Positions 37,281-40,643 of a stretch of 64,000 nt of DNA are shown here, piece after piece. The notes under the pieces were generated by a model. That model was given only the letters and a program-made list of their open reading frames with translations, made no database searches and was not told the DNA's origin. The position numbers and the translations under genes are program-made. The stretch comes from Halorubrum rubrum (GTDB taxonomy: Archaea > Halobacteriota > Halobacteria > Halobacteriales > Haloferacaceae), in assembly GCF_024494685.1 (NCBI RefSeq), contig NZ_JANHDM010000012.1, positions 62,001-126,000 of the forward strand, written 5' to 3'. Every line of letters begins with the position of its first letter. Within the stretch, counting starts at the first letter, position 1.

Positions 37281-38288
37281 TCAGTCGTCCGTGGGCTCGC
37301 CCGTGCCCGCGTCGATCTCCCTCGCGACCGTCCCCGTTCCCGCTTCCTCGGAGACACCCCGCCGCGACTGGATCTTCCCGGCCAGCACCGCGACCACGTA
37401 GACCGCGACCGCGACGAGGACGATGGTCCCGCCGGCGGTCGCCTCGTACCGGTACGAGAGGGTGATCCCGACGAGCACCGCGAGCTCCGCGAGCACGACC
37501 GAGGCGAGGAGCGACTCGCGGAAGCCGCGGGCGAGCTGCGCGGCGGCCGCGACGGGGACGACGAGCATCGCGGCGACTAAGATTACGCCCATGATCTGCA
37601 TCGCGCCGACGACCACCATCGCCGTCAGCGTCGTCATCAGGCGGTTGTACCACGCCACGTCGATCCCCGCGACGCGGGCGGCGGTCTCGTCGAACGTGAC
37701 GTACAGCAGCTGTTTGTAGGTGACCGTCACGACGAGCGAGACGAGGAGGAAGAGGACGACGAGCAGGACCGCGTTCTCCCTGGAGACGGTCGCGAGGTTG
37801 CCGAAGAGGTACTGGTTGATCCCGACCGCGAGCCCCCCGGTGTTCACGCTGATCAGGACCGCGCCGAGCGCGAACCCAGTGGAGAGCACGATCGCCATCG
37901 AGACGTCGTTGTACGCGTCGGTGACTTCGGAGATCAGCTCGATGGCGAGCGCGGCGATCATCGCGACGACGACCGCCGTGACGTACGGGGAGATCCCCGT
38001 GCCCAGGACCGAGTTGACGAACAGCCCGACGGCGACGCCCGCGAACGCCGTGTGTGCCAGCGCGTCGCCGATGAGCGCCATCTGCCGGTGGACGAGGAAC
38101 GTCCCGACGAGCGGGGCCATCACCGCGATCAGCGCCCCGACGAGGAACGCGTGGTGCATGAAGACGTACCGGAGCATCCCGATGCCGAACGCCTCGCCGA
38201 CCGCGTAGAGGGCGTCGCTCCACAGCCCGATCAGCCACGCGATGAGGTCGTAGGGGGCGCGGATCGCTCCCGAGACGAGCGGCGTCAC
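37281..38288 (-). CDS. Metal ABC transporter permease (ZnuB/MntB type)
   Basis: 335-residue integral membrane subunit with about eight or nine helices. Family segments: LVGTFLVHRQMALIGDALAHTAFAGVAVG, SVNTGGLAVGINQYLFGNL and GAMQIMGVILVAAMLVVPVA, typical of ABC-3 zinc/manganese permeases. Has a soluble acidic C-terminal tail (from about 305). Its ATG overlaps the stop of the ATPase gene by four bases (ATGA), placing it third in the operon. Confidence 0.92.
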   Translation of the reverse strand: MTPLVSGAIRAPYDLIAWLIGLWSDALYAVGEAFGIGMLRYVFMHHAFLVGALIAVMAPLVGTFLVHRQMALIGDALAHTAFAGVAVGLFVNSVLGTGISPYVTAVVVAMIAALAIELISEVTDAYNDVSMAIVLSTGFALGAVLISVNTGGLAVGINQYLFGNLATVSRENAVLLVVLFLLVSLVVTVTYKQLLYVTFDETAARVAGIDVAWYNRLMTTLTAMVVVGAMQIMGVILVAAMLVVPVAAAAQLARGFRESLLASVVLAELAVLVGITLSYRYEATAGGTIVLVAVAVYVVAVLAGKIQSRRGVSEEAGTGTVAREIDAGTGEPTDD

Positions 38289-39154
38289 GACCGGTCACCC
38301 CCCGGATCCGCCTCCGTCTTCGCCCCCAGGCCGAGTGCCGTCCCGTACGCCCGCTCGAGGGCGTCGCTCCCGGCGAACGCCGCCGGCGACCCGTCGAAGT
38401 ACACCTCGCGGTTGAGACAGATCACCCGCGAGGCGCGCTCGAGGACGGCCCCGATGTCGTGTTCCACGAGGAGTATCGTCATCCCCTCCTCGTTGAGGTC
38501 GGCGAGCAGGTCGAAGAAGGCGTCCACGGACTCGGCGTCGACGCCGACGGTCGGCTCGTCCAACACGAGGAGTTCGGCCTCGCCGGCGAGCGCCCGCGCG
38601 ATGTACGCGCGCTGGCGCTGCCCGCCCGACAGCGCCGTGATCTTCCGGTCGGCGAGGGCCTCGATCCCGACCGTCCGGAGCGCCTCGCGGGCGTGCTCGC
38701 GGTCCGTCTCGGTCACGCGGCCGAACCCGGCGTGCGGGAACCGCCCCATCAACACGACCTCCGCGACCGTGATCGGCATCCGCGTCGTGTTCTCGGTCAC
38801 GTCCTGGGCGACGTAGCCGACGCGCTCGCGCTCGGCGAACGCGAGCGAGGGGTGCCCGAGCAGCCGGGAACTCCCGGCGTCGGGCTCGTGAAGCCCCAGT
38901 ACGAGCCGCAACAGCGTGCTCTTCCCGGAGCCGTTCGGCCCGACGACCCCGACGTACTCGCCGCGGTCGACGCCGAACGAGACGTCCTCGACCACGGGCG
39001 TCGCGGCGTACCCGAACGTCAGGTCGACCGCCTCGACGACGCGGCCGGCGTCCTCGCCCGCGCCCCCGTCGCTCCGTTCACTGCCGGCCTCCTCGCTCTC
39101 CCGGCTCGTTTCGACCCCGCCCACGCCGACCGATGGAACCCCTTCGAACGACAT
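38285..39154 (-). CDS. Metal ABC transporter ATP-binding protein (ZnuC/MntA type)
   Basis: 289 residues. Walker A GPNGSGKST, Q loop YVAQD, signature LSGGQRQRAYIARAL, Walker B LLVLDEPTVGVD, H loop LLVEHDIG. The first 40 residues are a non-conserved acidic extension (EESEEAG-type composition), so a later start inside is possible but no better start is evident. Second gene of the metal import operon; four bases after the binding protein stop. Confidence 0.93.
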   Translation of the reverse strand: MSFEGVPSVGVGGVETSRESEEAGSERSDGGAGEDAGRVVEAVDLTFGYAATPVVEDVSFGVDRGEYVGVVGPNGSGKSTLLRLVLGLHEPDAGSSRLLGHPSLAFAERERVGYVAQDVTENTTRMPITVAEVVLMGRFPHAGFGRVTETDREHAREALRTVGIEALADRKITALSGGQRQRAYIARALAGEAELLVLDEPTVGVDAESVDAFFDLLADLNEEGMTILLVEHDIGAVLERASRVICLNREVYFDGSPAAFAGSDALERAYGTALGLGAKTEADPGGDRS

Positions 39155-39158
39155 GGTC

Positions 39159-40238
39159 TCAGGGCTCGAAGTTGCGGCCGTAGTCGGCGAACGTCACGTC
39201 CTCGGGGTCGTCGACGCCGAGCAGGATCCGGAACGTCGGGAGGTTCACCTCGCGGGCGATGTCGAAGTACCCCCAGCCGCGCTCGGCCCACGACTCCGCG
39301 GTCCCGGCGTACGGCGTGACCGGGAAGTACGCCGCCACGTCGGTCTGTTCGAGCAGCTGTCTCGCCGGTCGGATCGGTTCGAAGACGGCCGCGCCGATGT
39401 GCCGGATGTCGTTCGCGGCGATCGTCTCCTGGGCCCGGCGCATGTCCGCGGGGCGCACGTCACCGTCGGCCGCGAGGTTCACCACCAGCGGCTCGATGGT
39501 CGTCCCGTACCGGTCCGCGAGGTAGCCGAACGCGTTGTGTGCGGCGAGGAAGACCACGTCGCGCTCGGCCGCCTCGAACGCCTCCGCCCACGTCGAATCG
39601 AGGTCCGCGAGGTCGGCCTCGAGCGCCGACGCGTTCTCGCGGATCGCCTCCTCGGCGTCCGGAGCGACGTCGATCAGGCCGGCGGCGACGTTCTCGACCG
39701 CCAGCGTCGCGCGCTCGGGGTCGAGCCAGAAGTGCGGGTCCCTCGCGTCCTCGACCGCCTCCTCCTCGCCGAGCCCCTCGCCGAGGTCGATCAGGTCGAC
39801 GCCCTCGCGGGCGTTCACGACCGCCGTCTCCGCGGTCTCGGCGCCGAGCGTGTCGATAGCGCGGTCGGCCCACGGCTGGAAGTCGGGACCGACGTAGACG
39901 AACGCGTCGGCGTCGGTGATCCGTCGCTGGATCGACGGGTCCGGCTCCCAGCCGTGCCCGTGGAGTCCGGTCGGGACCAGGTTCTCGACCGTTATCGCCG
40001 TTCCCTCCGCGAGCCGCCGGGCGTAGTCGTAGAAGGTGAAAAACGAGGCGACCACGACGGGGCCGCCGGCGTCGCCGTCGCCCCCGTCGGCGTCGGTTCC
40101 CCCGCCGGCGTTCTCGCCGCCGCCGGAACCCGCCGATCCGCCGAGACAGCCCGCGAGCCCGCCGACGACCCCGCCGGCACCGCCCGCGAGGAACCGCCGC
40201 CGCGAGACGCTCGTCGTTGCGATTCGTTCGGAGTTCAT
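39159..40238 (-). CDS. Metal ABC transporter substrate-binding lipoprotein (TroA/ZnuA family)
   Basis: 359 residues. Tat-type signal SRRRFLAGGAGGVVGGLAGC with lipobox Cys at 31, then an acidic Gly-rich tether. Cluster A-I metal ligands: His in GLHGHGWEPDPS, His in DPHFWLDP, His in AAHNAFGYLADRYG, and a C-terminal Asp/Glu. The long His-rich loop of zinc-specific ZnuA is absent, so zinc or manganese are both possible. Anchored outside the membrane. First gene of the operon; an operator-like palindrome lies 53-68 bases upstream. Confidence 0.92.
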   Translation of the reverse strand: MNSERIATTSVSRRRFLAGGAGGVVGGLAGCLGGSAGSGGGENAGGGTDADGGDGDAGGPVVVASFFTFYDYARRLAEGTAITVENLVPTGLHGHGWEPDPSIQRRITDADAFVYVGPDFQPWADRAIDTLGAETAETAVVNAREGVDLIDLGEGLGEEEAVEDARDPHFWLDPERATLAVENVAAGLIDVAPDAEEAIRENASALEADLADLDSTWAEAFEAAERDVVFLAAHNAFGYLADRYGTTIEPLVVNLAADGDVRPADMRRAQETIAANDIRHIGAAVFEPIRPARQLLEQTDVAAYFPVTPYAGTAESWAERGWGYFDIAREVNLPTFRILLGVDDPEDVTFADYGRNFEP

Positions 40239-40290
40239 TACCGACCCGTCGGCGGGGAACGACCATAGTACTTGCGACCCTAATCAAATT

Positions 40291-40306
40291 ATTAGATAGA
40301 TCTAAT
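40291..40306. promoter_or_regulatory. Perfect inverted repeat, likely metalloregulator operator
   Basis: ATTAGAT-AG-ATCTAAT: 7-base arms, 2-base centre, in a 45-base AT-rich island between the metal importer (start 40238, minus) and yhbY (start 40398, plus). Size and symmetry fit a dimeric winged-helix repressor of the DtxR/MntR/SirR or Fur type. Regulator identity is inference. Confidence 0.6.
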
Positions 40307-40397
40307 TCATTGCGGACGGGACGACAGACACTCGTCGGGGCGCCGCGAGCGGACCGCGAACCTCAAGGTTCAATGCGGGCGAGCGAGTGAATCGGAC

Positions 40398-40643
40398 ATG
40401 ACCGATCAGCAGCTTCGAAAGGAGGCACACGACCTCGACGTCACCGTCTGGGTCGGCAAGGGCGGCATCGGGGCGGTCGTCGACGAGCTGGCCGACCAGC
40501 TCGACGACCGCAAGCTGGTGAAAGCGAAGTTCCTGCGGGCCGCCCGCGGCGGCACGTCGACGGACGAACTCGCCGACGAGCTCGCCGAGGCCGTCGGGGC
40601 CGACCTGGTCGAGACGCGCGGGAACACGGCGGTCTTCCACTGA
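40398..40643 (+). CDS. yhbY: CRM-domain RNA-binding protein YhbY
   Basis: 81 residues covering one CRM (CRS1-YhbY) domain: LRKEAHDLDVTVWVGKGGIG with the conserved GKGG loop, then LVKAKFLRAARGG. YhbY associates with pre-50S ribosomal particles in E. coli. The stop overlaps the mscS start (TGATG), so both are cotranslated. Confidence 0.9.
   Translation: MTDQQLRKEAHDLDVTVWVGKGGIGAVVDELADQLDDRKLVKAKFLRAARGGTSTDELADELAEAVGADLVETRGNTAVFH

Follow-up and report, generated by a model that had tools for sequence, protein, structure and literature searches.

Deletion of SirR in Halobacterium NRC-1 raises the mRNA levels of zurM, zurA and ycdH in the presence of manganese, according to the available text of PMC1779511 and of the review PMC3600143. 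The same text of PMC1779511 indicates that the mRNA of SirR is otherwise positively correlated with that of the importer, and dual control is discussed there. In Treponema, TroR, which acts on TroABCD, is a DtxR-family metalloregulator of an importer, as given in the available extract of PMC2628430. MntR of B. subtilis (solved chain of 142 residues) is likewise a DtxR-family metalloregulator of an importer. To our knowledge, MntR is devoid of a FeoA domain. The iron boxes of DtxR/IdeR are built of TTAGG half-sites; they have in common with the site described here the inverted TTAG half-sites and the protein superfamily. Palindromes of archaeal DtxR-family regulators were reportedly described by Leyn and Rodionov in 2015 (regulons, by comparative genomics) and in a 2024 study of the TroR network of Haloferax; both sets may include the motif reported below.

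The window (G000:C3:62001-126000) is the whole stretch of 64,000 nucleotides that was analysed and belongs to the 3.23-Mb genome of Halorubrum rubrum (G000). Its features relevant here are given below; positions preceded by + are counted from the first base of the first half-site.

37281 to 38288, minus strand: permease of the importer, ABC-3 family (Pfam ABC-3, 6.6e-61).
38285 to 39154, minus strand: ABC ATPase of the importer (Pfam ABC_tran, 2.9e-31).
39159 to 40238, minus strand: metal-binding lipoprotein, the ZnuA/TroA-family component of the ABC importer (Pfam ZnuA, 2.6e-50); ATG at +67 of the operator.
40264 to 40275, minus strand: GCAAGTACTATG, a predicted core promoter (BRE/TATA-like) for the importer operon; it corresponds to the AT-rich columns 31-41 in the promoter stack.
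40279 to 40283, minus strand: third half-site TTAGG (consensus TTWGA), starting 22 bases after the start of the first half-site.
40291 to 40306, no strand: inverted repeat, ATTAGAT and ATCTAAT around AG; similar site (at least 10 of 12 fixed bases) at 81 of 81 importer loci, 71 of them distinct.
40305 to 40292, minus strand: predicted core operator TTAGATCTATCTAA, within the inverted repeat.
40398 to 40643, plus strand: yhbY, divergent neighbour, found at 26 of the 81 importer loci (a lower bound, flank lengths varying between loci) against 81 of 81 for the motif; probably not controlled by the site.

The site had originally been predicted to be a perfect 16-base palindrome that stands out in GC-rich DNA, 53 bases before the start of the binding-protein gene and with yhbY on its other side. 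Positions 40291-40306 read ATTAGATAGATCTAAT, which mismatches its own reverse complement at two positions; the palindrome is thus imperfect and consists of two 7-base arms flanking an asymmetric AG. The contrast in composition is genuine, A+T amounting to 81% across 40280-40310 in a window of 69% G+C. The location upstream of the importer is also correct, although the distance to the ATG of the binding protein at 40238 is 52 bases; the ATG of the divergent yhbY, at 40398, is indeed found on the opposite side, 91 bases from the site. The window includes 33 inverted repeats of the 7-2-7 type, against 15.1 +/- 3.5 expected from 30 Markov simulations. As such repeats are common in the window, the bare observation of one of them could not support the claim of an operator. 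The repeat at 40291-40306 is the sole one with at least 75% A+T (simulation mean, 0.0), and a search for ATTAGATAGATCTAAT with up to three mismatches found no second place in the window and none across 100 shuffles. The site was counted as significant because it is conserved across loci.

Conservation was examined with the motif TTAGAYnnRTCTAA (TTAGACNNGTCTAA), a match being defined by at least 10 of the 12 fixed bases. The TTAGAT/ATCTAA arms are located upstream of genes encoding ZnuA, ABC_tran and ABC-3 proteins. The motif (10 to 12 of 12) was found upstream of the binding-protein homologue in 30 of 30 genus loci, i.e. the best 30 from a search of 52 genus genomes, in which importers are present at further places. 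It was also found (at least 10 of 12) upstream of the importer gene in all 51 named haloarchaeal loci, which were retained from 52 after a bacterial one (Prevotellaceae, L144) had been dropped. Both sets overlap, so that the 81 loci include 10 duplicates and correspond to 71 distinct promoters. Only 7 of 904 random 420-base stretches taken from the same named loci reach 10 of 12. A scoring matrix, from whose training the window site and three loci (L017, L018, L093) were left out, gives the window site 27.0 bits and the runner-up place in the window 10.8. Judged from these comparisons, the site is strongly conserved and common to haloarchaea. Importers outside the orthologous group of the window can be devoid of it: no site of at least 10 of 12 was found at the paralogous ZnuA gene on contig C5 of the window genome, and the site was looked for and not found at the importer of Haloferax mediterranei pHME505. 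A third type of ZnuA (32-33% identity to the window protein), found at L157:2963 (G003) and L158:4126 (G041), has the same operator.

When the 71 distinct promoters are stacked, a third half-site (TTWGA) becomes visible at +22 to +26 (T22 in 68 of 71, T23 in 65, G25 in 68, A26 in 54). A-rich columns at +31/+32 follow, and then AT-rich ones at +36 to +41; these read as BRE and TATA, the TATA boxes being clearer in the relatives than in the window promoter. The position of the ATG of the window binding protein, at +67, fits a leaderless transcript or one with a short leader. Two groups of importer loci can be distinguished, by eye and with duplicates counted, according to the position of the start codon. 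It is located at +63 to +70 in 58 of the 81 loci, including the window, and at +17 to +36 in 15 of the 81, which have a TATA-like box (also judged by eye) upstream and the operator near the predicted start; the start codons of the remaining 8 (L033, L103, L108, L115, L135, L141, L142, L143) are doubtful. Most loci of the second group have a recognisable third half-site (e.g. TTCGA, TTTGA, TGTGA). Since it is kept where the operator lies near the start, the third half-site seems to be part of the operator rather than of the core promoter. In the relatives inspected, at GDT1 genes and chromosomal DtxR genes the operator follows a TATA-like box and precedes the ATG, a placement inverted relative to that of most importers. 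An importer operator of the DtxR family is in itself of an ordinary kind; the three-part layout, with a third half-site at a fixed spacing, is distinctive. The window differs from the MntR and TroR operators by its archaeal BRE/TATA promoter, its TTAGAY half-site and its third half-site at +22.

The closest parallel is the importer carried by pNRC200 of Halobacterium, which is taken to be zurM-zurA-ycdH according to its plasmid location and gene order. This importer is homologous to that of the window (53% identity over 82% of the protein) and is preceded by the same tripartite operator (TTTGATACATCTAA, 28.3 bits), with TTAGA at +22 and the ATG at +70 instead of +67. It differs from the window by its location on a plasmid and by one half-site of the operator, TTTGA, which gives 9 of 12 to the consensus. 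SirR and the candidate regulator of the window genome are alike at the level of the DtxR family.

The window genome includes one regulator of this candidate type (C19 type), encoded at G000:C19:209361 (101.8 bits), plus two poorer members of the family. No regulator gene adjoins the importer of this genome, and no site of at least 10 of 12 was found within the 6 kb taken around the C19 gene. In other genomes, a C19-type DtxR gene lies no more than 5 kb from the importer at 14 of the 51 named loci (7 of the 51 having less than full flanks), and is found in the importer cluster of eight genus genomes (G006, G008, G015, G020, G024, G036, G039 and G040). Three of these genomes recur among the 14: G006 as L118, G020 as L116 and G036 as L128. 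In the tree, the C19 clade nests among regulators linked to the importer and regulators bearing the operator. DtxR HTH, metal-binding and FeoA domains were detected by Pfam in the C19 protein and in all 5 regulators scanned among the 14 linked ones; the FeoA domain distinguishes the C19 protein from MntR of B. subtilis. The linkage of DtxR genes to the importer and the parallel with Halobacterium support the DtxR/MntR/SirR-type operator of the original prediction.

Among solved structures, the C19 protein is closest to 5zr4, which we take to be DR2539, a Mn/Fe repressor of Deinococcus. The ligands of iron-type DtxR/IdeR include Met10 and Cys102 (available text of PMC4805248); in the C19 protein, both of these places are taken by Asp, and the remaining two ligand positions are occupied by Glu and His. 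This set of residues points to sensing of manganese or of mixed metals. Asp8, Glu99, Glu102 and His103 of B. subtilis MntR correspond in C19 to Asp, Asp (not Glu), Glu and His, and Glu11 to Lys, as also in DR2539 (available text of PMC3327659); compared with bacterial MntR, the metal-site residues seem mostly, though not all, of the manganese kind. The short DtxR proteins encoded on C18 and C3 were considered as regulators and found less likely, as they show no FeoA match and the metal ligands are absent. One short DtxR-family protein, encoded at G000:C18:246167 (L047), has a cysteine-rich tail (CPDCFDPETDACAC).

The exact pattern was found 45 times in the 52 genus genomes, against 6 times for a reversed control. 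Forty-two of these sites adjoin a ZnuA-type importer, a putative exporter (GDT1 or ArsP_2), a multicopper oxidase or a DtxR gene: 25 are upstream of ZnuA-type importers, 12 by DtxR genes (3 at chromosomal DtxR-GDT1 pairs and 9 in plasmid-like clusters, where some lie between DtxR and multicopper oxidase genes), 2 upstream of GDT1, 2 of ArsP_2 and 1 of a multicopper oxidase. One other site precedes the gene of a phosphonate-type binding protein and 2 are unexplained. When the third half-site was added to the pattern, a search of 170 family genomes gave 66 sites, whereas the reversed control gave 1. Thirty of the 66, all from outside the genus, were inspected, and 29 adjoin importers (16), putative metal exporters (ArsP_2, 8), multicopper oxidases (3), a multicopper oxidase with a DtxR gene (1) or a DtxR-family regulator (1); L213 is the sole one with no recognised gene beside the site.

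A genome-wide search, proposed along with the original prediction, therefore gives enrichment near metal genes across the genus; the signal is weak in the window genome, where sites with up to two mismatches number 16 against 17 for the control, i.e. neither enrichment nor a broad regulon in this genome alone. As these sites are at background level, the genome-wide signal stems from the comparison of genomes. The GDT1 gene at G000:C1 is preceded by a 10 of 12 site, with the first ATG of the frame 68 bases downstream; none of the other matches fetched from this genome is beside a gene of the kinds probed.

Several sites deserve mention on their own. An exact TTAGACAGGTCTAA at G000:C4:28811-28824 (L049, L162:2812; 19.2 bits with the importer matrix) lies just upstream of a gene encoding an ATPase assigned by eye as Orc1/Cdc6-like, on a 111-kb contig, with no metal gene in its surroundings among the kinds probed. 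Sites of the classical TTAGG kind, TTAGGCnnGCCTAA, are found at G000:C18:289870 and G000:C24:167584 and are possibly boxes of a second, iron-type regulator. Clusters encoding a C19-type DtxR protein and a multicopper oxidase carry the TTAGAY operator at L152, L156, L160, L161 and L164, with a GDT1 gene also present in three of the five (L152, L161, L164); they are possible mobile islands of manganese handling. ArsP_2 genes (PF11449, putative 10TM heavy-metal exporter) adjoin the operator at L145:3194, L149:3418, L204, L217-L219 and L223-L226; the shared operator suggests that these exporters handle manganese. At L150:3173, an exact TTAGACTAGTCTAA precedes the gene of a phosphonate-type binding protein, whose importer would be either a metal-responsive ABC importer of a non-metal substrate or an unusual carrier of a metal ligand.

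Taken together, the site is probably an operator for manganese-dependent repression of the importer operon (37281-40238, minus strand) by the C19 regulator. A dimer of the DtxR/MntR/SirR type with a FeoA domain, most likely the product of G000:C19:209361, would bind TTAGATCTATCTAA in its metal-loaded form, with Mn(II) as the likeliest metal. The third half-site, at a distance of two helical turns and next to the BRE, would probably receive a second dimer by cooperative binding, and the pair of dimers would block assembly of the transcription complex, so that the importer would be switched off when metal is plentiful. Metal-dependent repression from an upstream position is favoured by the effect of the SirR deletion in Halobacterium together with the same promoter architecture.

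Other functions of the site were weighed against this one. Its origin by chance, as an AT-rich promoter palindrome, draws on the 33 inverted repeats of the 7-2-7 type in the window, but was rejected given the unique AT-rich repeat, the lack of near matches in the shuffles and the presence of the motif at all 81 loci but in only 7 of 904 control stretches. The Fur-type box that had been envisaged initially has no matching regulator, since the best Pfam match to Fur in the window genome is partial and, at 21.3 bits, below the cut-off of 23.1; a chance palindrome or a Fur-type box is extremely improbable. It is very improbable that the site serves the divergent yhbY: the ATG of this gene is merely 91 bases away, but yhbY was found at 26 of the 81 importer loci (a lower bound) and the motif at all 81, and the third half-site and core promoter are oriented towards the importer. 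A DtxR/IdeR iron box does not fit either, because the arms are TTAGAT and not TTAGG, the fifth base of the first half-site being A rather than G in 69 of the 71 promoters, and because the C19 protein, taken as the regulator, has no Met/Cys iron ligands.

The metal and the direction of control leave more room for other readings. An operator responding mainly to zinc or iron instead of manganese is somewhat unlikely. Zinc would fit the binding protein, whose best solved relatives are YcdH and the zinc protein AdcA, whose top NCBIfam match is the zinc protein AztC (far under its cut-off) and in which, as in YcdH and AdcA, the third metal ligand is His. In such binding proteins, His at this position is a sign of zinc. 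Iron would fit 5zr4, which, if it is DR2539, would respond to both manganese and iron. Against these metals stand the Asp residues at both specificity positions of the C19 regulator, the manganese effect in Halobacterium (available text of PMC1779511) and the presence of the same site at genes of the GDT1 family, whose members studied so far transport manganese (available text of PMC7380456). Manganese is given a larger share than zinc, the residues of the regulator and the link with GDT1 arguing for the former and the His ligand of the binding protein for the latter. The predicted BRE/TATA lies downstream of the operator, which counts against repression. In archaea, an operator located upstream of BRE/TATA often means activation. 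The same operator and regulator might therefore activate the importer when metal is scarce, or act both ways, which is considered unlikely. Such a role would agree with the constant spacing of the operator, whose centre precedes the TATA-like block by about 32 bases, with the ATG at +63 to +70 in 58 of the 81 importer loci, with the inverted arrangement at GDT1 and chromosomal DtxR genes of relatives, and with the positive mRNA correlation and the dual control discussed in the available text of PMC1779511. It disagrees with the rise of importer mRNA in manganese on SirR deletion described there, which concerns a Halobacterium promoter of the same geometry, and with the 15 of 81 loci in which the site is near or past the predicted start, where activation is implausible.

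Manganese-dependent repression of the importer remains the preferred reading for the window. The presence of the operator at putative exporters (GDT1, ArsP_2) argues against one simple manganese repressor shutting both import and export. Tentatively, the haloarchaeal three-half-site operator may be a position-coded switch, through which a single manganese-sensing DtxR family would set import and export oppositely by placement alone: at importers and multicopper oxidases the family would read the site ahead of the BRE, and at GDT1 exporters and its own gene it would read a site lying between TATA and ATG.

A visual guess has thus become a testable regulon, defined by a compact pattern with almost no background (66 sites against 1, with 29 of 30 inspected sites fitting). 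Across haloarchaea, this pattern picks out DtxR regulators and multicopper oxidases along with importers and putative exporters. The manganese-dependent effect of the SirR deletion in Halobacterium is now linked to a sequence that can be mutated. With two promoter geometries and an operator common to importers and exporters, the rules that set repression against activation in archaea become directly testable.
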